A stretch of 53,840 nt of DNA from NCBI GenBank assembly GCA_017473265.1, contig JAFULQ010000019.1:1-53840 (forward strand). The letters run 5' to 3'. The notes under the pieces are model-generated. The model worked only from the letters and a program-made list of their open reading frames with translations. It was not told where the DNA came from and searched no databases. Both the position numbers and the translations under genes were made by a program. This DNA is from Erysipelotrichaceae bacterium. GTDB lineage: Bacteria > Bacillota_I > Bacilli_A > Erysipelotrichales > Erysipelotrichaceae. Below are positions 25,868 through 37,018 of the stretch, one piece after another. Position 1 is the stretch's first letter. Each line of letters begins with the position of its first letter.

Positions 25868-26347
25868 CTAGAAATTCCACTTTTCTTTTATTATTTCTTT
25901 TAACCTATGATTTTTATCAAATACATTTTCTGTTAAATTATTTAGTTCTAACAAACTAGTAATGCACCACTCTGGATCTTGAGTATGAAATGAATAATAA
26001 ACTTCATTCATTTGTCTATATGTAAACAAACTCATTATATATTTTGTAGACAGTTCTCGAGTATAAGAAATATATCTATACATATAACCAATCCAAAATA
26101 GTGCGCTTTTTGAATATTTCTCTTTACCATATTCACTGTCTCCAAATTGTTCAATAATACTTTGGTTTCCTTCATTTACATCCAATGAAATAACTACTGG
26201 ATTATTCGTATCCAATTGTTTTAATAAATTAGAATGTAAAAACCTTCTAATATATATACCTGTAGAGCAATTTAATTCGGTGGATTTCTCAAACAGTTTT
26301 CCTTGATATTCAGCAAGTAATAATCCATTATTGTCAAATTTTCTCAT
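25868..26347 (-). CDS. Partner protein of the DUF3990 gene (candidate antitoxin)
   Basis: A 159-aa mainly helical protein I do not recognise by name. The middle has an aromatic-rich stretch (FWIGYMYRYISYTREL) and a helix TYRQMNEVYYSF. No signal peptide, membrane helix or DNA-binding motif. Its ATG overlaps the TGA of the DUF3990 gene in an ATGA junction, so the two are made together. By position and coupling it is a likely neutralising or accessory partner; that is inference. Confidence 0.6.
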   Translation of the reverse strand: MRKFDNNGLLLAEYQGKLFEKSTELNCSTGIYIRRFLHSNLLKQLDTNNPVVISLDVNEGNQSIIEQFGDSEYGKEKYSKSALFWIGYMYRYISYTRELSTKYIMSLFTYRQMNEVYYSFHTQDPEWCITSLLELNNLTENVFDKNHRLKEIIKEKWNF

Positions 26348-27195
26348 TTTAATAATTCCTCAATATATAGTCCATTTCTAAATTCTCTCTTAGCAAGTCT
26401 TAACTTAGTATCAATTTCGTAGCTGCGTTCCACTAATGACTTTCTGCAATCCTCTCTCTCCGGATTGGAAATATAGTATTTCTCTATAGGTATAAGCTTT
26501 TGCAATGCCTTTTCTGTTCTAAAAACAAATTGTAGGCCTAACTTTGAAGCCGATAAAGAATGAAGAGCAGCATCAGCATTAACTTCTCCTTCAGTAAATT
26601 GTGCCATTACATAAAACATTTTATTGTCTGCAATTGGTGCAATAATTACATCAGCCATTTCTATATCATTAATTATGTTTTTTACTATTCTACTCGATGA
26701 ATAATTTCCTAATGTTCCTCTATAATAGCATATAGCAAGCATCCACTCTAAATCACAATCAAACCTTTTAATTTTCAATCCTTCAAGTGAATATTTAAAA
26801 GAATAAACAGATGATCTATCTTTTTCGCATACAAATGATAAAGCTTGATGATATGTTTCACCAAGATAAAAACCTTTACCAAAATCACAATTTTCTCTAG
26901 AACCTTCAATTGTGATTTCAAACAATCCATTTTTAGAACCATGAAATAACACGTTTTGAAATTTCTCTTTTAATAATTCTTCTTTTACAGAATTAATTCT
27001 ATATTTACTTTCATAAATAAAAGAATAAACTTTTTCACAAACATCATCACGAGCATTTCCTCTTTTCTCTATTGCATCCAAAGTTACTCGTGATACTTTT
27101 GTCATTTTAGAAAACTCAATACTATTCATTTTTTCGGCTTCCAATATAAAGCCAATATCTTCTCTGATATTATAATCGCAATTCACTTTAATCAT
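26344..27195 (-). CDS. HTH domain fused to DUF3990 (ADP-ribosyltransferase-like)
   Basis: A 283-aa two-domain protein. Residues 13-65 resemble a Cro/C1-type HTH (IEFSKMTKVSRVTLDAIEKRG). Residues 81-235 match DUF3990: VLFHGSKNGLFEI with His85, CDFGKGFYLGETYHQAL (103-119), ADVIIAPIADNKMFYV (181-196) and LGLQFVFRTEKALQKL (219-234). I recall DUF3990 as belonging to the ADP-ribosyltransferase fold group, where the first His and a Tyr bind NAD. Start ATG 27195 follows AGGAGG by 7 bases; the longer frame to 27261 has no such site. Overlaps the next gene by 4 bp. Likely a self-regulating toxin; unproven. Confidence 0.72.
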   Translation of the reverse strand: MIKVNCDYNIREDIGFILEAEKMNSIEFSKMTKVSRVTLDAIEKRGNARDDVCEKVYSFIYESKYRINSVKEELLKEKFQNVLFHGSKNGLFEITIEGSRENCDFGKGFYLGETYHQALSFVCEKDRSSVYSFKYSLEGLKIKRFDCDLEWMLAICYYRGTLGNYSSSRIVKNIINDIEMADVIIAPIADNKMFYVMAQFTEGEVNADAALHSLSASKLGLQFVFRTEKALQKLIPIEKYYISNPEREDCRKSLVERSYEIDTKLRLAKREFRNGLYIEELLK

Positions 27196-27219
27196 ACTAA
27201 GTCCTCCTGTTCCAATAAA

Positions 27220-27248
27220 ATTATAAAACAAAAAACTTGTTTGTACAA
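27220..27248 (-). promoter_or_regulatory. Promoter of the DUF3990 module
   Basis: On the minus strand TTGTAC (27248-27243), 17-base spacer, consensus TATAAT (27225-27220). The -35 lies inside the long palindrome at 27233-27265. Confidence 0.62.
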
Positions 27249-27265
27249 TATGTACAAACAAGTTT
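27227..27265 (-). terminator. Long palindrome: terminator of PPase gene and likely operator
   Basis: Perfect 15-base arms (27233-27247, 27251-27265) around a 3-base centre. On the minus strand the stem is followed by a T-run, so it should terminate the pyrophosphatase transcript, whose stop codon it overlaps. It also covers the -35 of the DUF3990 promoter, so the HTH domain could bind it. Confidence 0.7.
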
Positions 27266-27587
27266 ACGTTACAACTGTTATTTTAAAATACTGTTTTTGA
27301 AAATGAACTTGTTTTAATATTTCTTCTTTTGTAAAAGACAGATGTTTTGGTACAACAATCCACTTATCTTCAACATCATTTTCTCTATGAATAATCGCTA
27401 TTACTTTACCTACAAAAGTTTCTACTGGCTTATCTACACCCAATATGTAGGTATCTGGTTCTTCACCATCTAATGCCATAACGCCTTCAATATAGCCATA
27501 ATTCACAGGATAATACAAATCTTTATGTTTTGGATGATAACTTCCTAAAGGTCTATCTACAATTACAGTTACAGTTTTTCCTATCAT
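27264..27587 (-). CDS. Short inorganic pyrophosphatase-like protein
   Basis: A 107-aa cytoplasmic protein of the class I pyrophosphatase fold, against about 175 aa for E. coli Ppa. Retained motifs: IVDRPLGSYHP, YYPVNYGYIEG with two active-site Tyr, DGEEPDTYILG where the usual D-G-D-x-x-D has Glu at the second acid, and NDVEDKW. The N-terminal strands and the C-terminal helix are largely missing. Similar short members are common in clostridia; hydrolysis of pyrophosphate has to be regarded as likely rather than certain. AGAGGA precedes ATG 27587. Single gene. Confidence 0.75.
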   Translation of the reverse strand: MIGKTVTVIVDRPLGSYHPKHKDLYYPVNYGYIEGVMALDGEEPDTYILGVDKPVETFVGKVIAIIHRENDVEDKWIVVPKHLSFTKEEILKQVHFQKQYFKITVVT

Positions 27588-27616: not shown

Positions 27617-27644
27617 CATAAAAAAACGTTCCGAAGAACGTTTT
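27617..27644 (-). terminator. Terminator of the Mrp-like operon
   Basis: Perfect 9-bp stem AAAACGTTC/GAACGTTTT (27623-27631, 27636-27644) with a CGAA loop, followed by T-rich minus-strand sequence. Overlaps the last stop codon. Confidence 0.72.
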
Positions 27645-29670
27645 AGAATACAAAGATAATATATACCAAAGTAATACACAAACCAATACATGCTAGTAAT
27701 AAACCAAATGATAATGAACGAGTAATAATGAAACGTTCTTCATATAATCTAGTACCAAATAATGCGAATTCATGTACATAGTCTTTGTATACAGGATTTT
27801 TCTTTTGATACGTATTATTCGCAAACCATTGATATGCATTCATTACCTTACCAGCAGTATGTGTAATGAAATTACCTTCTGGTAATTCATATGGTAATGG
27901 ACTATCGCTATATAATGTTTTACGTAATACAACTACAATACCATCTACTACACTGTCAAATACTCTACATACTAAACGAGAAATAAATGGTAAGAAACCT
28001 AATAAGATTGGACGATAAATTTTGTTTTCTACATCAAACCATTCTGGCCATAGATTTACATACTCATTATTCTTGATTAATACTTTTCTAATGAAGAATA
28101 AGTAAACAAGAGCACCAATAGTAATGGAAATTAAACCACCTTTTAAGTTCACCCAAGCAAAATAATGAACTGCATGTCCAGCTTCATGTAAATGCATGAA
28201 TTCTTGACCAATGATAGCTACTTGATCCATTAATTTATGTGGGAATAATCCCCATACGAATAATAGTAAAGCAGATACTGCTAAAGCAAATGTGCTTTCC
28301 ATATTCATATATTTTTTCTTACCGTCATATTTAGCTTGTACTTTTTCATCGTTATTTGATTCAACAAAGATAGCTACAAATAACTTTGTCATATAAGCAA
28401 CTGTTAATCCACCACTGAATAAGAATACCCATTCAATTGCTGTGATTAATAAGCTACCACCAAAGTGAACAATACTTTCATGTAATAAGGTTTTAGAAAT
28501 GTATCCACTGAATAGAGGAATACCACCAATAGCTAAAGCACCAACTAAGAAGATAGCTTTTAATAATGGTTTATTCTTACCAAAGCCACGAATTGTATTT
28601 AAATTCAAGGCATGTGTATTCATATAGATAACACCCGCAACCATGAATAATACTAACTTAATCATAGAGTGGTTTACCATGTGTAACATTGTACCATGTA
28701 CTGCTAATTCATTATGATGACCTAGTAAGCATTGCATACCAACACTAACCATAATAAATCCAATTTGAGACATAGATGAACAAGCCAATGTGCGTTTTAA
28801 ATCAACTGAGAATACCGCTAAGAACGCACCACCAAACATTGTGATTGTTCCTAGAATAAGAATTAACATACCCCAGTTTGCGTCATATAAGAATAAATTG
28901 CTTGTGACTACAAGGATACCAAAGATACCTGTCTTAGTTAAAATACCAGAAAGTAAAGCAGATGCAGGAGCAGGTGCTACTGGATGGGCTTTTGGTAACC
29001 AAATGTGTAATGGGAAAGCACCCGCTTTTGCACCAAAACCAACCAACATACAAACACCAGCTGCATATAATAATGTTTTATTTTCAACTGTTTCTGCTAA
29101 TGGTAAAATTTCAGAAATTGTTAATGTACCTAATTCATGATATACCATGAATAATCCCATCAACATTACCAAACCACCAATTACTGCAACTGCTAAGTAA
29201 GTAACAGCCGCACGTAATGCTTCTTTATTTTCTTCTTGAGCTACCCATACATAAGATGTAAATGACATAATTTCAAAGAAGATAAATGTTGTGAATAAAT
29301 CACTAGATAGGAATACCCCCATCGTAGCACCTAATGTTAATAATAAGAATAAATAGAAACGATTACGATTCTCATGATGTGCAAAATATTCTCTTGAAAG
29401 AATCGTTGTCATCATCCACATTAACGCTGCGATAGAACCATATACATCTCTAAAACCATCCATTGTGAAATGTAATCCCATTCCACAAATTTCAGGAATT
29501 TCTAATGCCATTTCCGGTTGCATAGCTGCTAATAACATCAATACAAATTCAGAGACAACAATAAAGTCTGCTAAATAATCTCTAGCTTTTTCATTTTTAA
29601 AACCAACTAACAAACAAGCTAAAGCACCAATCATAGGATAAAATACAAGAACACCTAATAAATAATTCAT
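27643..29670 (-). CDS. Mrp/NuoL-like antiporter subunit with C-terminal extension
   Basis: About 675 aa, the longest of four proton-channel subunits here. The 14-helix core keeps the working residues: Glu in FTTFIFFEIMSF (TM5), Lys in GFGAKAGAFPLHIWLPKAHP (TM7), Lys in GILTKTGIFGI (TM8) and Lys in FSGYISKTLL (TM12). About 130 C-terminal residues extend past the core, with an amphipathic stretch and a final membrane helix, like the lateral helix of NuoL or MrpA. ATG 29670 is 8 bases from GGGGG; ATG 29673 and 29676 are alternatives. Last gene of the operon. Confidence 0.83.
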   Translation of the reverse strand: MNYLLGVLVFYPMIGALACLLVGFKNEKARDYLADFIVVSEFVLMLLAAMQPEMALEIPEICGMGLHFTMDGFRDVYGSIAALMWMMTTILSREYFAHHENRNRFYLFLLLTLGATMGVFLSSDLFTTFIFFEIMSFTSYVWVAQEENKEALRAAVTYLAVAVIGGLVMLMGLFMVYHELGTLTISEILPLAETVENKTLLYAAGVCMLVGFGAKAGAFPLHIWLPKAHPVAPAPASALLSGILTKTGIFGILVVTSNLFLYDANWGMLILILGTITMFGGAFLAVFSVDLKRTLACSSMSQIGFIMVSVGMQCLLGHHNELAVHGTMLHMVNHSMIKLVLFMVAGVIYMNTHALNLNTIRGFGKNKPLLKAIFLVGALAIGGIPLFSGYISKTLLHESIVHFGGSLLITAIEWVFLFSGGLTVAYMTKLFVAIFVESNNDEKVQAKYDGKKKYMNMESTFALAVSALLLFVWGLFPHKLMDQVAIIGQEFMHLHEAGHAVHYFAWVNLKGGLISITIGALVYLFFIRKVLIKNNEYVNLWPEWFDVENKIYRPILLGFLPFISRLVCRVFDSVVDGIVVVLRKTLYSDSPLPYELPEGNFITHTAGKVMNAYQWFANNTYQKKNPVYKDYVHEFALFGTRLYEERFIITRSLSFGLLLACIGLCITLVYIIFVF

Positions 29671-29686
29671 CATCATGTCCCCCTTC

Positions 29687-31162
29687 CTACATCAATGCCA
29701 TCGCAATGTTAGTGAAGAAATCCACAAATGGTTGTGCATTTACTCCAAATACAATCATCGCAATCACAAATAAACCAAATGGTAATAACATCATCCAAGT
29801 AGGATCTTTAACACCATCTAACTTAGAATAATCAAAATCCTTACCAGGGAAGAATGCTCTTACAGTAACTGTCATCATATAAATAGCCGTTAATAATGCA
29901 GAAATTAATAAGGCAACTACACCCGCAATCGCAAGTGGAGAACCATCTGTTAATGCCGCATCCGCCAATGCCCATTTACTCATAAATCCACACATTCCTG
30001 GAACACCCATTAAAGCTAAACCAGAAATTGTATAAACGATAAATGTAAATGGCATCTTACGACCCATACCATCTAATTCATGAACATAATTTGTATGACT
30101 CTTATGCATAATCGCACCTGCACAGAAGAATGAAGTAATCTTCATAACAGCATGGAAACACATATGACATAAAGCACCAACTAGTCCAAGTGGTGTCATT
30201 AAAATTACACCAAATAAGATATACGATAAATTACTTACTGTAGACCAAGCCAAACGACGTTTAATATGTGTTTCTTTAATCGCTCTACTACAACCATAAA
30301 CAATTGTGAAGATAATTAAACACATTAATACCGTTTGAGCCCATGTACCTTTCACAAGTTCAGGTCCAAAGCAATAATATGTAACACGAATACAAGCAAA
30401 TGCACCCGCTTTAACAACCGCAACCGCATGCAATAATGCAGTAACTGGAGTAGGAGCTACCCCTGCAGTTGGTAACCATTCACAGAATGGGAACATTGCT
30501 GTTTTTACAGAGAAACCACAGAAACATAAGAAGAAAACTAATGTTAATAATTCTTTCTTATCTGCTAAAGCAACTAAATCTAATACACCACCAGCAGTAA
30601 AGTTAGCAGTATCTCCATATACTAGAATAAAGATAACCCCAATAAATGCGAACGCAGCACCACCTAATGAATAGTACAAATACTTACGAGTCGCATGAAT
30701 GGCTTCACGAGATAAACTATGAATAATTAATGGTAAAGTAACCATTGTTAATAATTCATAGAACACATACATAGATAAGATATCTTGAGATAACGCAATA
30801 CCTAAAGACACCCCAAATGTAATGGTATAAAACATAAAGAATGTTGGTTGATGTTCTTCATGTTCCATATATTCAAAAGCATATAAAGTAGCTAATGGCC
30901 ATAACAATGCACAAATACCTACAAATACACTTCCTACACCATCTAATCTAAAACTTACATTTAAATAATCTGTAAAGCGGAACAATGTAAATTCTGCAGT
31001 TGGTTGGTTTAATAACATTAAAATCGCAAGAATTGATGTTACTAATACAATACCTTCTACATAAAACATTTTCGCTTTCTTTGATTTTAAAGGAACAAAT
31101 GGAATTGTTAATCCAAATACGATTGGTAATAAAACCACAATCGGCATAATCATTTCACTCAT
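29687..31162 (-). CDS. Mrp/NuoM-like antiporter subunit
   Basis: Membrane subunit of 491 aa with about 14 helices. Conserved channel residues are present: Glu in SMYVFYELLTMVTLPL, Lys in GFSVKTAMFPFCEWLPTAG, Lys in AVAVVKAGAFACI and Lys in GFMSKWALADA. It would move H+ or Na+ across the membrane as part of the multi-subunit complex. ATG 31162 lies 7 bases after GGGGG; the GTG at 31165 is in the same frame but closer. Gap to the next gene is 16 bases. Confidence 0.85.
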   Translation of the reverse strand: MSEMIMPIVVLLPIVFGLTIPFVPLKSKKAKMFYVEGIVLVTSILAILMLLNQPTAEFTLFRFTDYLNVSFRLDGVGSVFVGICALLWPLATLYAFEYMEHEEHQPTFFMFYTITFGVSLGIALSQDILSMYVFYELLTMVTLPLIIHSLSREAIHATRKYLYYSLGGAAFAFIGVIFILVYGDTANFTAGGVLDLVALADKKELLTLVFFLCFCGFSVKTAMFPFCEWLPTAGVAPTPVTALLHAVAVVKAGAFACIRVTYYCFGPELVKGTWAQTVLMCLIIFTIVYGCSRAIKETHIKRRLAWSTVSNLSYILFGVILMTPLGLVGALCHMCFHAVMKITSFFCAGAIMHKSHTNYVHELDGMGRKMPFTFIVYTISGLALMGVPGMCGFMSKWALADAALTDGSPLAIAGVVALLISALLTAIYMMTVTVRAFFPGKDFDYSKLDGVKDPTWMMLLPFGLFVIAMIVFGVNAQPFVDFFTNIAMALM

Positions 31163-31177
31163 CACATTTCCCCCTTC

Positions 31178-32680
31178 CTAGAATAAACTACTAGCAATCG
31201 TGCTAATAAACTCAATTAATCCATTTGGTAACACACCTAAACCTAATGTTAATCCCGCTAATACCATTAATGGAATCCACATAGCCTTTGGCTCTTTACC
31301 ATAAGACTTAATTTCAGTTCCCTCTTTAGGGAAGAAACCATTTACAACAATTTCTAATAAGTATCCAGCAGTTAATAAAGCACTTACTAAAAGAATAGCT
31401 GGACCAACATAACGGAAGGCTCCAATATCTGATTGTAAAGCACCAAGCGCTAAATACCACTTACTGATAAATCCACTTGTTGGTGGAATACCAATCAATC
31501 CTAAAGATGCGAATGTAAAACACCACAAAGTAATTGGCATCGATTTACCAATACCTTGTAAATCACTAACTCTTGTAATATGACACTTAAAGATAAAGAT
31601 ACCTGCAGTTAAGAATAGTGCACACTTAATAAATGCATGGAATACAGTATGTAATAATGCACCTTCAAAACCAGTTGTAGTCAATACAGCTAAACCAAAT
31701 AATACATAAGAAACTTGAGATACTGAAGAATATGCTAAACGTTTCTTAAAAATTGGTTCTCTAAACGCAAGTAAACTACCCATAAATACCGTTAATAAGC
31801 TCAATGTCATCCAAGCATATTGTACCCAAGTACCTGCAATGAAAGATGGACCAGCAATGTAGAATACTACACGAATAATTGCTAATACACCACATTTAAC
31901 AATGATACTTGATAATACAGCAGAAGCAGGAGATGGTGCTACTGGATGGGCACTAGGTAACCAAGCATGTAATGGGAACATACCCGCTTTTGCACCAAAA
32001 CCAATTAACATACACATAATCGCAACCAACATAATTGCTGTATTGCCATTATAACTTAATACACTCATCACTCCACCAGCTGTGAAAGTTAAACTTGGAG
32101 CATATTGATACAATACAAAGATTCCAAATAAACCTAAATATGCACCACACATAGAATAGAATAAGTACTTTAATGAAGCCATTGTAGACTCATGAGATCC
32201 ATTGTGTAATACAAAAGGCATACTTGTTAATGTCATAAATTCATAGAATAAATATAATGTTACTAAGTTACCAGCAAAATCTAAACCAACAAGTACTCCA
32301 TATACAATTAAATAGAAACCAAAGAAACGTTTTTCTTCATGTTCATGTTTCATGTATACACAAGAATAAATACCTACTAAAACAAAGACAATGCTAATAA
32401 AAGTTACAAATAATAAACTTAATGAATCCACCGCAAAATAAATTGGTAAATCTTCTAATAAATAGAACAATGTACAAGACATTCCTTTTTGTAAACCAAC
32501 ATAGATTGCTAAAGCAGCAGAAACAACCAACCCAGCCACTGAGAATAGATGAATTTTACTTAATTCTTGATCACTTTCTGCTTGATAATCATTATTTTTC
32601 TTCAAATGTTCAACAAATGAAGCCACTAATAGGATAGAACCCATTACGATAGGTAGTAAAATCGGTAATAAAATTAACAT
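31178..32680 (-). CDS. Mrp/NuoM-like antiporter subunit
   Basis: Membrane subunit of 500 aa with about 14 helices. The functional residues are kept: Glu in LYLFYEFMTLTSMPF, Lys in GFGAKAGMFPLHAWLPSAHP, Lys in SIIVKCGVLAI and Lys in SGFISKWYLALG. AGGAGG precedes ATG 32680 and the gap to the upstream subunit is 13 bases. Closest in style to MrpD/MbhH-type subunits; which one takes the place of MrpA cannot be decided by eye. Confidence 0.85.
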   Translation of the reverse strand: MLILLPILLPIVMGSILLVASFVEHLKKNNDYQAESDQELSKIHLFSVAGLVVSAALAIYVGLQKGMSCTLFYLLEDLPIYFAVDSLSLLFVTFISIVFVLVGIYSCVYMKHEHEEKRFFGFYLIVYGVLVGLDFAGNLVTLYLFYEFMTLTSMPFVLHNGSHESTMASLKYLFYSMCGAYLGLFGIFVLYQYAPSLTFTAGGVMSVLSYNGNTAIMLVAIMCMLIGFGAKAGMFPLHAWLPSAHPVAPSPASAVLSSIIVKCGVLAIIRVVFYIAGPSFIAGTWVQYAWMTLSLLTVFMGSLLAFREPIFKKRLAYSSVSQVSYVLFGLAVLTTTGFEGALLHTVFHAFIKCALFLTAGIFIFKCHITRVSDLQGIGKSMPITLWCFTFASLGLIGIPPTSGFISKWYLALGALQSDIGAFRYVGPAILLVSALLTAGYLLEIVVNGFFPKEGTEIKSYGKEPKAMWIPLMVLAGLTLGLGVLPNGLIEFISTIASSLF

Positions 32681-32693
32681 TTGACTTCACCTC

Positions 32694-34214
32694 CTACATA
32701 AACATTGCTAAACCTGTTTCGATTAACTCAATAATTGGTTGTGATAATACACCCAATACTAAGTTCATCACTACAAAACAAATCATAGCAATTGCTTTAC
32801 CCATATCTTCTTTTGCAGTAATACGAGTAAATCCTTTTTCTTTTTCAGTTTCCGCATCCATTGGTGTATAGATACGAATTACAGTTTTCATAAAATATAC
32901 TGTATTTAAAATTGTTGAAATCGCTAAAGCAACTAAAGTAAAGAACATCTTAGTAGATGATACACCTACAGCTGCTTGTGCAAACAATACCTTAGATACA
33001 AATCCAGATAATAGTGGGAAACCTACCATAGATAATGCACCAACAGTAAATGCAACACCAGCTAATTTATTACGATACGCCGCACCCGTTAATTGTTTAA
33101 AATCACGACGATTGTTAGATACATTTGTTAATCCATATGCTGATACAAACAATAAAGCTTTAGTTACTGCATGTGATAAAATGTGATAAATACTAGCAAC
33201 AACACCAGCAGTAGTACCTAAACCTAATCCCATATAAATATAACCAATTTGCGCAACAGAAGAATACGCAATCATACGACGAATGCTATTTTCTTGAATC
33301 GCATCCAATGATCCCATAATCATTCCAATAATACCGAAAATGAATAAGACATTTAAAACATGACTTCCAATAATTACTTCAAATCCAATTACACGGAAGA
33401 AAATCTTAATTAATAAGAAAATATATCCCTTAGAAACCATTGAAGATAAGATAGATGCACTAGACAATGTCGCATATCCATACGCATCAGGAACCCAAGA
33501 ATGGAATGGGAATAATGCACTCTTAATTGCCAAACCAACAGACAATAAACAAATTGCCACTAATAATGGAATTTGATATTGACCAGTAGCCACTAAATTC
33601 GCAATCGCTTCTTGCATATTGCTCATTAATAAATGACCAGTTAAACCATATAAGAAACAGATACCTAATAAAAGCATCCCAGAACCAAGTAAGCTCATAA
33701 TCATATAACGAACAGAAGCTTCTAAAGTACGTCCTTCATGCAATTTATTTTTAATCATAATTAATCCACAAGCAGATAATGTATTAATTTCTACAAATAC
33801 ATATGCTGTGAAAATATCATTTGTATAAACTAAAGCAATTAATGAACATAACAATAAGTTAACCATTACATAGAATAAGTTTTGTTTAGATTCTTCAATT
33901 TCTCTTGCACGTTCTTGTCCACCACTAATTACACACAAAAACATAACAACACAGAAGAATACAGCCATTAATGCTTCAAGAACACCGACACGAATTTCAT
34001 TACCCCAAGGTGCAGGGAAATGCCCCATCATGTAAGTATAACTTTCACCAGTAGAAATAACGAAAGCTAATACCGCAAGATTCAATGCACAAACAATACC
34101 AATTAAAATCATATTCCAGATTTTTGCTTTTTTATTGCTCAACATTGTACTTAACGGACCAGAGAAAATCGTTAAGATAATTGAAAAGAATGGAAAGTTT
34201 TGTACAAAAGCCAT
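32694..34214 (-). CDS. Mrp/NuoN-like antiporter subunit (MrpD position)
   Basis: Membrane subunit of 506 aa directly after the MrpC-like gene, the place of mrpD in standard operons. Key residues: Glu in AYVFVEINTLSACG, Lys in GLAIKSALFPFHSWVPDAYG, Lys in SSMVSKGYIFLL and Lys in SGFVSKVLFA. GGAGGG lies upstream, and the ATG directly follows the mrpC stop codon. Expected to carry protons as part of the complex. Confidence 0.86.
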   Translation of the reverse strand: MAFVQNFPFFSIILTIFSGPLSTMLSNKKAKIWNMILIGIVCALNLAVLAFVISTGESYTYMMGHFPAPWGNEIRVGVLEALMAVFFCVVMFLCVISGGQERAREIEESKQNLFYVMVNLLLCSLIALVYTNDIFTAYVFVEINTLSACGLIMIKNKLHEGRTLEASVRYMIMSLLGSGMLLLGICFLYGLTGHLLMSNMQEAIANLVATGQYQIPLLVAICLLSVGLAIKSALFPFHSWVPDAYGYATLSSASILSSMVSKGYIFLLIKIFFRVIGFEVIIGSHVLNVLFIFGIIGMIMGSLDAIQENSIRRMIAYSSVAQIGYIYMGLGLGTTAGVVASIYHILSHAVTKALLFVSAYGLTNVSNNRRDFKQLTGAAYRNKLAGVAFTVGALSMVGFPLLSGFVSKVLFAQAAVGVSSTKMFFTLVALAISTILNTVYFMKTVIRIYTPMDAETEKEKGFTRITAKEDMGKAIAMICFVVMNLVLGVLSQPIIELIETGLAMFM

Positions 34215-34592
34215 CTATTTTCCCTCCTTTTTCAAAATTGTAGAAATTTCATCTAAATCTAACGTACCATAACGTTCATATAGACGAATTGTCAAAGATA
34301 ACATCAAAGCAGAAACAGATACGGATACTACAATCCCAGTAAGAACTAATCCACTAGGAATTGGGTTAATATATGCTTCCATACTTTGCACACCATTGAT
34401 AACAATTGGAGCTGTACGACCTACAATAAATCCTTTTAAAGCCAAGAACATATACATCGCAGTATCCATGATATTGAAACCAATGATCTTTTTAATTAAG
34501 TTCTTTTGTAATAATAAGTTAGAGAAACCGATACCGAATAAAATCATCGCAACCGCTTCGCCATAATTACTCATCAAATTTGCGAAATCCAT
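34215..34592 (-). CDS. mrpC: Mrp antiporter subunit C (NuoK-like)
   Basis: A 125-aa protein with three membrane helices, homologous to NuoK. GFGIGFSNLL-type helix 1 is followed by IGFNIMDTAMYMFLALKG, the MrpC counterpart of the NuoK membrane-carboxylate region, and by NPIPSGLVLTGIVVSVSVSA, a hallmark of MrpC. GGAGGA precedes ATG 34592, one base after the mrpB-like stop. Confidence 0.88.
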   Translation of the reverse strand: MDFANLMSNYGEAVAMILFGIGFSNLLLQKNLIKKIIGFNIMDTAMYMFLALKGFIVGRTAPIVINGVQSMEAYINPIPSGLVLTGIVVSVSVSALMLSLTIRLYERYGTLDLDEISTILKKEGK

Positions 34593-34593
34593 C

Positions 34594-35541
34594 CTAGTAT
34601 CCTCCTTTTCTAAACATTACATAGAAAGTATACATTGTTCCAGTAACAACAACTCCTACACAAATATTTAATACTAAAATCAATCCACTACTAATTAGGT
34701 GTCCTGGAATACCTAATGGAATAATGCTATGAATATGGTTAGCACCAGTATAGAAAGAATAACATTTAGAAACACTATAAGTAGCTAAAGCACAGAAACT
34801 TGTCCACTTATATGTATTTGCATTAAAGAATTTATTTGTCTTTTCAAAACCAAAAGCATTTGAATATAGAATTAAAGCAGCACCAATAATAGCCCCACCA
34901 GAGAATCCTCCACCAGGTCCTAAATGTCCAGCTAATACTACATAAATACCAAAAATCAATACCGGCGGAACCAATACTTTCGCAACCGTTTGTAAGATTT
35001 TGTCTTCATATAAACGAGTTTTTCTTTTTTCAACTAACTTCTTCTTATCATCTCTCAATAAGATTAATACTGTACAAGTAGCCACAAACAATACGTGAGA
35101 TTCTCCTAATGTATCGAATGCACGATAGTCCAAAATCATCCCCGTAACAATATTTACTGCACCAGTTTCTTGCATACCACTTTCGATATAACGCTCAGAC
35201 ACTTCATTGTGTACTGGATTGTTTGAATCACCAAAAGTAGGCATATAAGATACAGCTACTAATAATGTAAAGATAACTACACAACAAAAGAACACACAGA
35301 AAAGCTTATATGACTTTTCAAATAAATTTAATTCTTTGTTGTTACTAACATCATAAATATTTTTCAACAACTTTTGTTTTTCATTCTCACGAGTTTGAAT
35401 CGTTTCTTCACTCTCTAAGAATTCTCGTTGAGGTTTCATTTCTACACGGTTTACATATACATCTTCTGTACCATAAAACCATGTTTCTAATTTATGAGAA
35501 AGAGTCTTTTTATACTTTTCACTTGTAACTTTTTTACTCAT
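34594..35541 (-). CDS. mrpB: MbhE-MrpB fusion with soluble N-terminus
   Basis: A 315-aa subunit in three parts. Residues 1-80 are charged and soluble, without a known domain. Residues 83-165 carry a membrane helix and NIVTGMILDYRAFDTLGESH, the segment found at the C-terminus of MrpA and as MbhE in archaeal hydrogenases. Residues 190-315 are MrpB/MnhB (PPVLIFGIYVVLAGHLGPGGGFSGG is split across its first helix and loop). AAGGAGG precedes ATG 35541, which overlaps the DUF4040 gene by 8 bp. So MrpA is split, with its tail fused to MrpB. Confidence 0.82.
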   Translation of the reverse strand: MSKKVTSEKYKKTLSHKLETWFYGTEDVYVNRVEMKPQREFLESEETIQTRENEKQKLLKNIYDVSNNKELNLFEKSYKLFCVFFCCVVIFTLLVAVSYMPTFGDSNNPVHNEVSERYIESGMQETGAVNIVTGMILDYRAFDTLGESHVLFVATCTVLILLRDDKKKLVEKRKTRLYEDKILQTVAKVLVPPVLIFGIYVVLAGHLGPGGGFSGGAIIGAALILYSNAFGFEKTNKFFNANTYKWTSFCALATYSVSKCYSFYTGANHIHSIIPLGIPGHLISSGLILVLNICVGVVVTGTMYTFYVMFRKGGY

Positions 35542-35806
35542 GATCTAACTCCTCCTTCTTATCTGTCTTCACAATCGCTTGAATTTTCTTCAATGTCGCA
35601 AAGAACAATAAACTTGTTACACCAGCACCTACAGCTGCTTCCGTAATTGCCAAGTCTGGAGATTCAAGTAATACCCAAATAACCGAAATAATTAAACTAT
35701 ATGACATATAAATCAAAATAGAGTTTAATAAATTCTTAGAAAAACTTACTGCCAATGCACAAATTACTAGGAAAATTAATAAAATATACATAATCATATT
35801 AGTCAT
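35534..35806 (-). CDS. DUF4040/MbhD-like subunit (MrpA fragment)
   Basis: A 90-aa protein with three membrane helices. SPDLAITEAAVGAGVTSLLF is the DUF4040 signature found inside MrpA after its NuoL-like part and as separate MbhD in hydrogenases. ATG 35806 lies 9 bases after GGGAGG and one base after the mrpG stop; the longer frame reaching 35830 overlaps mrpG without its own ribosome site. NuoJ-like role in the membrane arm is inferred from relatives. Confidence 0.83.
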   Translation of the reverse strand: MTNMIMYILLIFLVICALAVSFSKNLLNSILIYMSYSLIISVIWVLLESPDLAITEAAVGAGVTSLLFFATLKKIQAIVKTDKKEELDHE

Positions 35807-35807
35807 T

Positions 35808-36155
35808 TTATTCATCCTCCCCAATTTCATCTAAATTTACATGTTCATATTGTGAATGATCTTCATTAGTCACTACTTCTAATTGCGCAATTAAGTGCGA
35901 AGAAGTAGGAGAAGCCAACCACAAGAACACAACGATTAAAAATAACTTTAATGATGTGAATGAAAAACCACACATTAAAATCAATCCAATTAGTGAAGAC
36001 GCAATTCCTAATGTATCCCCCATCGCTGCAGAATGCATACGATTTAATACATATTTAAAACGGAATGCTCCAAACACTTCCAAAATAAACATCAAAAGGC
36101 CAATAATCATGAAAATAGCCCCAGCAATAAAACGAATCCAAGCTAAGATTTCCAT
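35808..36155 (-). CDS. mrpG: Mrp antiporter subunit G
   Basis: A 115-aa protein with three membrane helices: the first around FIAGAIFMIIGLLMF, then FRFKYVLNRMHSAAMGDTLG, the typical MrpG loop, followed by two more. The C-terminal tail is acidic and soluble. GAGGGGG precedes ATG 36155, just after the mrpF stop. Confidence 0.87.
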   Translation of the reverse strand: MEILAWIRFIAGAIFMIIGLLMFILEVFGAFRFKYVLNRMHSAAMGDTLGIASSLIGLILMCGFSFTSLKLFLIVVFLWLASPTSSHLIAQLEVVTNEDHSQYEHVNLDEIGEDE

Positions 36156-36156
36156 A

Positions 36157-36471
36157 CTACTTGTCCCCCTCTAATTTTTCTAAATATGATTCCATATAGA
36201 TTCTTGTACCAACAATAACCGCTAAGAAACTAATCATGGCATAAATTAAACACACGTCTGCTAAAAAACCTTCATTCAATTTAACAGCCAATGTCGCAAT
36301 CATAACCATAACCATTGTTCCGAGCATATTTACCGCAACTAAACGGTCAGCTACTTTAGGTCCTAAAATCGCACGAATCAAACACAAGATAGCAAGAATA
36401 CCTAAACAAACCAATACAATTGTTGTAAATACATCAACAACTTGCGCCAATACTGGAAATTGATCAAACAT
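36157..36471 (-). CDS. mrpF: Mrp antiporter subunit F
   Basis: A 104-aa protein with three membrane helices. LIRAILGPKVADRLVAVNMLG is the MrpF signature (GPxxxDRxVAxD/NxxG) between helices 1 and 2. A ribosome site GGGGGTAGGAG precedes ATG 36471. Second gene of the operon, 11 bases after mrpE. Confidence 0.9.
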   Translation of the reverse strand: MFDQFPVLAQVVDVFTTIVLVCLGILAILCLIRAILGPKVADRLVAVNMLGTMVMVMIATLAVKLNEGFLADVCLIYAMISFLAVIVGTRIYMESYLEKLEGDK

Positions 36472-36482
36472 ACTCCTACCCC

Positions 36483-36956
36483 CTAATCCTTAATCCATAG
36501 ATTTTCTAATTTAGTAATTACCTTTACAAAACTAGAACTATCCATTCCTACTGCTATACTCTTATCTAAACAGTGTACAGCAAAATGATTACCATCAATA
36601 TTAACAGTAATCGTACCTGGAGTTAACGTAATTGCATTTGCCAACAACGTTTTCCCCGTTTGTGTTTTTAAATCTACAGTAAAATGTGCTAATACTGGTT
36701 CAACAATTTCTTTTTCAGACAAAATCAAACGAACTGCAGCTAAATTCGCTTGAATGATTTCCCAAAATAAGATGCCAGCATATTGCAACAACAACCATAG
36801 TGAGATATATAATTTCTTTTCTTTATTTAAGCTATAATCCATAAACTTACATGTAAACCAAAAAATAACTGCAGCTACACCTAAACCAATAACTGCAATT
36901 TCAGTTGTCCATGTACCATTAAATATAACCCATAAGCAGAAATATAAAACGAACAT
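36483..36956 (-). CDS. mrpE: Mrp antiporter subunit E
   Basis: A 157-aa first gene of the operon. Two or three N-terminal membrane helices are followed by a soluble domain containing LLANAITLTPGTITVNIDG, a clear MrpE signature. GGGAGGGG lies upstream of ATG 36956 and a good promoter 35 bases further. In known Mrp systems MrpE helps assembly but is not the ion path. Confidence 0.9.
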   Translation of the reverse strand: MFVLYFCLWVIFNGTWTTEIAVIGLGVAAVIFWFTCKFMDYSLNKEKKLYISLWLLLQYAGILFWEIIQANLAAVRLILSEKEIVEPVLAHFTVDLKTQTGKTLLANAITLTPGTITVNIDGNHFAVHCLDKSIAVGMDSSSFVKVITKLENLWIKD

Positions 36957-36990: not shown

Positions 36991-37018
36991 ATAATACGCC
37001 TAAAAAATAAATAGTCAA
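36991..37018 (-). promoter_or_regulatory. Promoter of the Mrp-like operon
   Basis: On the minus strand TTGACT (37018-37013), 16-base spacer, TATTAT (36996-36991), about 35 bases before mrpE. The rest of the gap to 37110 is AT-rich with nothing else recognised. Confidence 0.6.

Follow-up and report, generated by a model that had tools for sequence, protein, structure and literature searches.

Group 3 of the Mrp systems is defined by the absence of mrpA and by an mrpD that occurs "sometimes with multiple copies" (PMC8415708). The stand-alone Mrp of P. furiosus (mrpEFGBB'CD) contains neither MrpA nor an energy-input module and uses Na+ as the coupling ion (PMC8415708). Roles have been described for several residues of these and related complexes, including MrpA Glu780, MrpB Phe41, MrpF Asp38 and MrpB Asp121 (PMC9568556) as well as MbhD Glu69 (PMC7419157), and in simulations MrpF Asp38 binds Na+ (PMC9568556). 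How many ions are moved per antiporter-like subunit, and how the channels are coupled, are open questions for Mrp and complex I alike.

Here we describe an Mrp-like operon found in a window of 53,840 nucleotides, i.e., the whole stretch of DNA analysed, from an Erysipelotrichaceae bacterium. Based on sequence comparisons, we assign a probability of roughly 0.75 to the reading that the operon encodes a cation/proton antiporter of the group 3 Mrp type, which stands alone and contains four antiporter-like subunits.

Gene content and borders of the operon

Ten open reading frames (ORFs) on the minus strand span positions 27643-36956 and are transcribed from 36956 down to 27643 in the order E-F-G-MbhD-(MbhE+MrpB)-C-A4-A3-A2-A1. 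The ORF list, Pfam and NCBIfam, the latter two used for the domain assignment, agree with the first-pass annotation, which had claimed a ten-gene Mrp-like operon of this content at this place. The genes and adjacent signals are as follows:

36991..37018, minus strand: promoter-like site upstream of mrpE, 10/12 matches (consensus match only)
36483..36956, minus strand: MrpE, 157 aa, first gene (PF01899, E 6.5e-28)
36157..36471, minus strand: MrpF, 104 aa, with Asn48 at the MrpF Asp38 position (PF04066)
35808..36155, minus strand: MrpG, 115 aa (PF03334)
35534..35830, minus strand: MbhD/DUF4040 subunit, 98 aa, with Glu64 corresponding to MbhD Glu69 (PF13244)
34594..35541, minus strand: EB, an MbhE-MnhB(MrpB) fusion, 315 aa (PF20501 + PF04039)
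34215..34592, minus strand: MrpC/NuoK-like subunit, 125 aa (PF00420)
32694..34214, minus strand: A4, 506 aa, antiporter-like, adjoining MrpC, MbhH/MbsH-like (PF00361)
31178..32680, minus strand: A3, 500 aa, inner antiporter-like subunit (PF00361)
29687..31165, minus strand: A2, 492 aa, inner antiporter-like subunit with MrpA/NuoL-type TM8 His246 (PF00361)
27643..29676, minus strand: A1, 677 aa, terminal antiporter-like subunit with a lateral-helix C-terminus (PF00361, AF2 model, Foldseek)
27623..27644, minus strand: terminator-like hairpin directly 3' of A1 (consensus match only)
37142-37118: second terminator-like hairpin, upstream of the operon (consensus match only)

The spacing between the ten genes ranges from -23 to +13 nt, and a search for an RNA switch upstream of the operon yielded no Rfam match. 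Since PF04039, PF00420, PF01899, PF04066 and PF03334 all score above cut-off, MrpB, C, E, F and G are present. The source genome (1.80 Mb, 29 contigs, 95% complete) encodes no PF00361 proteins other than A1-A4.

The operon lacks an MrpA of about 800 aa. Group 1 and group 2 Mrp are marked by a large MrpA with fused C-terminal MbhD and MbhE domains; here, these domains are encoded in separate genes outside any large MrpA. The first-pass annotation was right to place the MbhD and MbhE parts there, but the E-B fusion itself was already known from MbsE of MBS (PMC8415708), and the statement that a standard Mrp has two antiporter-like subunits leaves out group 3 Mrp (PMC8415708). As judged from its sequence, the operon fits the description of group 3 Mrp (CPA3).

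Next to the operon, the window harbours a gene for a DUF3990-domain protein (305 aa, 26344-27261) that overlaps at its end with an ORF of 159 aa for which Pfam gave no match (region 25868-27261); the two could be a toxin-antitoxin-like pair. A 107-aa protein encoded downstream of the operon (27264-27587) matches inorganic pyrophosphatase weakly and below the threshold.

Channel residues, anatomy and phylogeny of A1-A4

Aligned to E. coli NuoM (E144/K234/K265/E407), the antiporter-like subunits carry the following charged residues in TM5/7/8/12: E135/K217/K248/K395 (A1), E137/K221/K252/K397 (A2), E147/K231/K262/K407 (A3) and E142/K231/K262/K408 (A4). The alignment thus bears out the initial claim of a Glu in TM5 and a Lys in TM7, TM8 and TM12 of all four subunits. 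The Glu/Lys/Lys/Lys set is invariant over 69-83 related loci except for a single gap at TM12 of A3 and for TM8 of A2, where Lys is found in 56/72 proteins and Asn in 16/72. These conserved residues argue for four maintained proton paths and speak against dead channels; the first-pass view that four ion paths look competent is likewise read from the residues. The 16 A2 proteins with Asn in place of the TM8 Lys (e.g., the one from locus L042) retain the TM8 His, which in this subset may substitute for Lys, as in NuoL.

The TM8 of A2 contains this His together with a one-residue insertion (HAVAVVK) as in MrpA, NuoL and HyfD. The His is present in 72/72 A2 proteins, as is the Thr of the STVS motif, and the His position is occupied by Ser in every A1, A3 and A4 sequence. 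A1 is distinguished by its C-terminus: the AlphaFold2 model (pLDDT 84.9, pTM 0.80; 46-58 in the last 40 residues) shows an antiporter core together with TM15 (508-533), amphipathic helices at 549-587, at 603-622 and from 633 onwards, and a final TM helix, i.e., a TM15/lateral helix/TM16 arrangement. A Foldseek search with this model returned MrpA on top and NuoL chains close behind. The hallmarks of the MrpA N-half are therefore divided, with the lateral helix on A1 and the TM8 His on A2.

A phylogeny of the four subunits, proposed by the first-pass annotation as a check, revealed four distinct and deeply separated proteins outside the MrpA/NuoL clade. In a 76-sequence maximum likelihood tree, three deep clades (A4, A1 and A2/A3) were obtained, which were recovered in a 96-sequence set analysed by FastTree. 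The A4 and A1 clades include the first and the last antiporter of the Peptoclostridium Mrp, respectively, while the A2/A3 clade (support 100/100) includes the middle subunits of Peptoclostridium, of the haloarchaeon Natronorubrum and of a rhizobial complex I. A2 and A3 each form a monophyletic group and share 37% identity, the remaining pairs among A1-A4 being 22-29% identical; by these trees, A2 and A3 derive from an old duplication. No member of A1-A4 falls inside the MrpA/NuoL/HyfD clade (99.6/100). Accordingly, the term "split MrpA" used earlier is apt for the anatomy (A1 lateral helix, A2 TM8 His) but not for the phylogeny, as none of the four is an MrpA N-half. Recent tandem copies were ruled out by the identities of 22-37% and the deep clades; the earlier annotation had named recent tandem copies with dead channels as the outcome that would speak against it, and what was found instead are old lineages with their residues kept.

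The cation end

The glutamate corresponding to MbhD Glu69 (Glu64) is conserved in 80/80 sequences, and the equivalents of MrpA Glu780 (EB Glu147) and MrpB Phe41 (EB Phe213) are each conserved in 85/85. Two other positions deviate: that of MrpF Asp38 is Asn in 77/77 loci, and that of MrpB Asp121 is Asn in 81/85, as it is, by our reading of the alignment, in MbhF. The Glu780, Phe41 and Asp121 positions were assigned by motif rather than from a full MrpA/MrpB alignment. The Asn of MrpF also occurs in Peptoclostridium, Natronorubrum and further stand-alone relatives, as opposed to Asp in MBH, MBS and Bacillus-type Mrp; since the Asp replaced here is the one that binds Na+ in simulations, the cation route or the ion itself may differ. 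The best solved relative of EB is MbsE (6u8y_E), and a single-chain structure prediction of EB gave a poor fold. At the sequence level, the cation-site end resembles that of MBH/MBS.

Distribution and origin

An EB query against named genomes retrieved no fewer than 580 relatives; the 80 with the best matches stem almost all from Lachnospiraceae metagenome-assembled genomes (MAGs) and isolates; the operon is common in gut Lachnospiraceae. The ten-gene order is identical in 56/56 loci marked by script as intact at both ends and containing all ten genes, nearly all of them from Lachnospiraceae, and the same order recurs in other Bacilli and Lachnospirales genomes. Among further loci, two contain A3 as two ORFs, and one is without a detected E gene. 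A close EB fusion (E around 1e-83 or better) is encoded in about 45 of 295 sampled Lachnospirales genomes. In the family of the window, matches were obtained in 10 of 95 genomes, and in about six of these the fusion is a close one. None of the neighbour genes is conserved, the commonest being cytidylate-kinase-like as read from its sequence (13/66 loci), and no relatives of the operon were found on viral contigs.

The EB protein of the window is 97% identical to that of a MAG named Erysipelotrichaceae bacterium (L026), up to 68% identical to Lachnospiraceae proteins and up to 58% to those of members of its own family. A2, A3 and A4 of the window are placed among Lachnospiraceae in the tree, and a gene 2 kb upstream of the operon has its best match in the window's own genus. 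This pattern is compatible with lateral transfer of the operon, although mis-binning may be an alternative.

Relatives with one to five channels

Among the related operons, those lacking redox genes encode one channel (e.g., L147, L149), two (L148, L150, L156) or three (L020, L023, L108, L157, L207; the contig of L020 stops inside the third antiporter, and its count is a minimum). Four channels are found in operons of the window type and, with a different composition, in L205, and five in L204 (2435-13548, G500:C6), where contiguous ORFs of 489-689 aa each retain Glu/Lys/Lys/Lys. In operons with two to five channels, the first channel subunit is of the A4 type and the last of the A1 type. The inner members stem from separate duplications, namely A2/A3, copies of A4 in L204/L205 (two of the inner subunits of L204 are A4-type duplicates), copies of A4 in L157 and copies of A1 in L023. 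It is possible, if clearly short of even odds, that these operons form one series with fixed A4 and A1 ends, in which repeated independent duplications supplied inner channels up to a total of five, the channel number would serve as a gear setting the H+/cation ratio and, in the four-channel form, the MrpA hallmarks were split between A1 and A2. Such a natural family, free of a redox enzyme and ranging from one channel to five, with the charged residues intact in most versions, offers a dose series that could test whether every channel contributes one proton to the stoichiometry.

According to the MBS paper, the length of the lateral helix corresponds to the channel number (PMC7684303). In the present family, the A1 connector comprises 20 residues with one channel, 77 with two, 41-96 with three, 86-229 with four and 114 with five; the NuoL connector has 70 residues (three channels). 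As a ruler for channel number, lateral-helix length therefore shows a weak tendency with exceptions, in sequences that are non-independent. Since it does not scale cleanly, one continuous brace over all four channels is an inference.

Two loci differ in their fusions. In L020 (8455-9570), MbhD, MbhE and MrpB form a triple fusion, A2 is absent between A3 and A1, and the contig stops within A1. In L221 (1-19000), three Mrp sets follow one another within 19 kb; every set has a single antiporter subunit, and its EB-type fusion (about 316 aa) may also contain MbhD.

Search for a redox partner

In the source genome, neither PF00346 (NuoD/hydrogenase large subunit) nor PF00146 (NuoH) was found, each search being positive in 11/14 control genomes, and no NuoB/NuoI-like ORF was seen within the window. 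By these searches, the genome lacks NuoD and NuoH of complex I, and the window lacks its NuoB and NuoI; the redox module and the NuoH-like anchor that MBH/MBS operons encode are missing as well. Queries with E. coli Nuo/Hyf and Ensifer Nuo had no match among 8124 ORFs from 88 operon loci and the window, while both control regions were positive. A NuoH homologue was not found in 24 of 25 operon-bearing genomes; the exception, Eisenbergiella porci, encodes one away from the operon. These negative searches in the source genome and around related operons confirm the first-pass annotation, which had reported no redox module and had stated that a hydrogenase/NuoBCDI-type module just outside the operon in relatives would overturn its view; none was present in the related loci searched. 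Taken together, the genome, neighbourhood and 25-genome searches argue strongly against a redox module, be it beside the operon or encoded elsewhere.

Three further loci encode Fe-S or flavin proteins nearby, which do not amount to a NuoB/D/H module. In two genomes of one genus, a divergently transcribed gene for a protein of about 435 aa, weakly similar to NuoI/HyfH, lies beside the four-channel operon (L144, 9976-11283; L145, 3432-4736), and L195 features NuoF/NuoG-like genes nearby on the opposite strand. True MBS-like operons occur in Bacilli and Lachnospirales (L146, L153, L159, L213): the genes E, F, G, D, the E-B fusion, C and two antiporters are followed by genes similar to HyfC/NuoH and NuoB and, where the locus extends that far, to NuoC, NuoD and NuoI (about 670 aa).

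Proposed mechanism and alternative explanations

As a stand-alone group 3 Mrp, the subunits would assemble into a rod. E/F/G/MrpB, MbhD/MbhE and C would form a cation pathway at one end, from which A4, A3, A2 and A1 would extend outward in a row of four proton channels linked by a central polar axis, with the lateral helix of A1 possibly bracing the row by analogy to NuoL or MbsH'. Protons passing through the channels, whether under the proton motive force or in the reverse mode, would be coupled to the movement of Na+ (or K+) at the opposite end. More channels would mean more protons exchanged per cation, such that a small force could support a steep cation gradient, or vice versa. Given that the host possesses Rnf and that the ligands of its ATP synthase c-subunit are of the Na+ type, the likeliest role would be an exchange of H+ for Na+ that regulates cytoplasmic pH and keeps the two gradients in balance. 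The Rnf genes comprise RnfC- and RnfG-like genes (Pfam), RnfD (family search) and a fourth ORF read as RnfE; the c-subunit contains the sequence GQG...ALAETCAIY, which we take to be a Na+-type motif. Weighing against the proposed reading are the Asn residues at the positions of MrpF Asp38 and MrpB Asp121, the TM8 Asn of 16/72 A2 proteins, the uneven connector lengths and the poor fold predicted for EB.

That the operon instead encodes the membrane arm of an MBH/MBS- or complex I-like redox complex, with the redox module encoded elsewhere, is suggested by MbhH (6cfw_H) being the best solved sequence match of all four channels, by the similarity of EB to MbsE and by the true MBS-like operons of same-class relatives (L146, L153, L159). 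To our knowledge, every complex of this kind requires a NuoH/MbhM-type anchor on the docking side, yet the source genome lacks NuoH as well as a NuoD/hydrogenase large subunit, the 88 operons have no redox genes nearby and 24 of the 25 genomes are without NuoH, which renders this explanation highly improbable.

Two other explanations concern what the four subunits do. A1-A4 might represent alternatives, i.e., a pool from which antiporters with one to three channels and differing ion or pH properties are assembled; the stand-alone one-, two- and three-channel relatives indicate that a complete row is non-essential in the family, and the connector does not lengthen in step with the channels. However, neither the gene order nor the set of four varies among 56 loci, and every subunit has a clade and residues of its own, as would rather be expected of fixed positions in a single complex; we consider such a pool improbable. 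The extra channels might also serve rod stability, dimer contacts or regulation, leaving the H+/cation ratio near that of a one- or two-channel Mrp. The ratio of H+ to Na+ in Mrp is thought to be about 2, a value not firmly established (PMC7419157), and 16/72 A2 proteins are without the TM8 Lys. Nevertheless, all four charged residues are found in every A1 and A4 and, bar one gap, in A3, and the five-channel relative has kept all of its charged residues; a purely supportive role of the extra channels thus appears unlikely, though it merits serious attention.

Comparison with known systems

The P. furiosus stand-alone Mrp shares with the operon the gene order and the lack of both MrpA and an energy-input module, yet it has one MrpD as opposed to four channels, and MbhD and MbhE are fused with MrpB being separate, whereas in the window MbhD is separate and MbhE is fused to MrpB. 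Operons on the plasmid EAL2_808p of Peptoclostridium acidaminophilum (L108) and in Natronorubrum aibiense (L110) have a window-like order and the MrpF Asn; unlike the window, both have three channels, no A2/A3 pair and an MnhB apart from MbhE. The three antiporters of Peptoclostridium are of the A4, A2/A3 and A1 types. In Natronorubrum, channel lysines have been lost (TM8 Lys to Thr in p1, TM7 Lys to Asn in p3).

Similar to the operon, MBS and MBH of P. furiosus possess MbhD/MbhE-type junction subunits, with MbsE as an E-B fusion; MbsH matches A4, and MbsH', which has a lateral helix, matches A1. In contrast to the window, they have a redox module, MbsM/MbhM as NuoH-like anchor, two channels or one, and an Asp in MrpF. 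Group 1 and group 2 Mrp (Bacillus, Dietzia) share the small subunits but include the MrpA of about 800 aa absent from the window. Four antiporter-like subunits also occur in the Nuo complex of Ensifer adhaerens, one of which (Dfam, TM8 His) belongs to the A2/A3 clade; unlike the window system, this complex I is redox-driven and comprises NuoA-I. Its operon lies on plasmid p1 (L109, 13002-29188), and its subunit D has Asn in place of the TM7 Lys. Increased pumping by complex I with extra antiporter subunits is the topic of Chadwick et al. (2018), cited in PMC7419157.

No account of the fixed four-channel form turned up in the searched full texts of the open literature. Group 3 Mrp with several mrpD and the E-B fusion in MbsE are already known; new relative to these texts are the fixed set of four channels, the related operons ranging from one channel to five, the distribution of the TM8 His and the lateral helix over two subunits, and the invariant Asn of MrpF.
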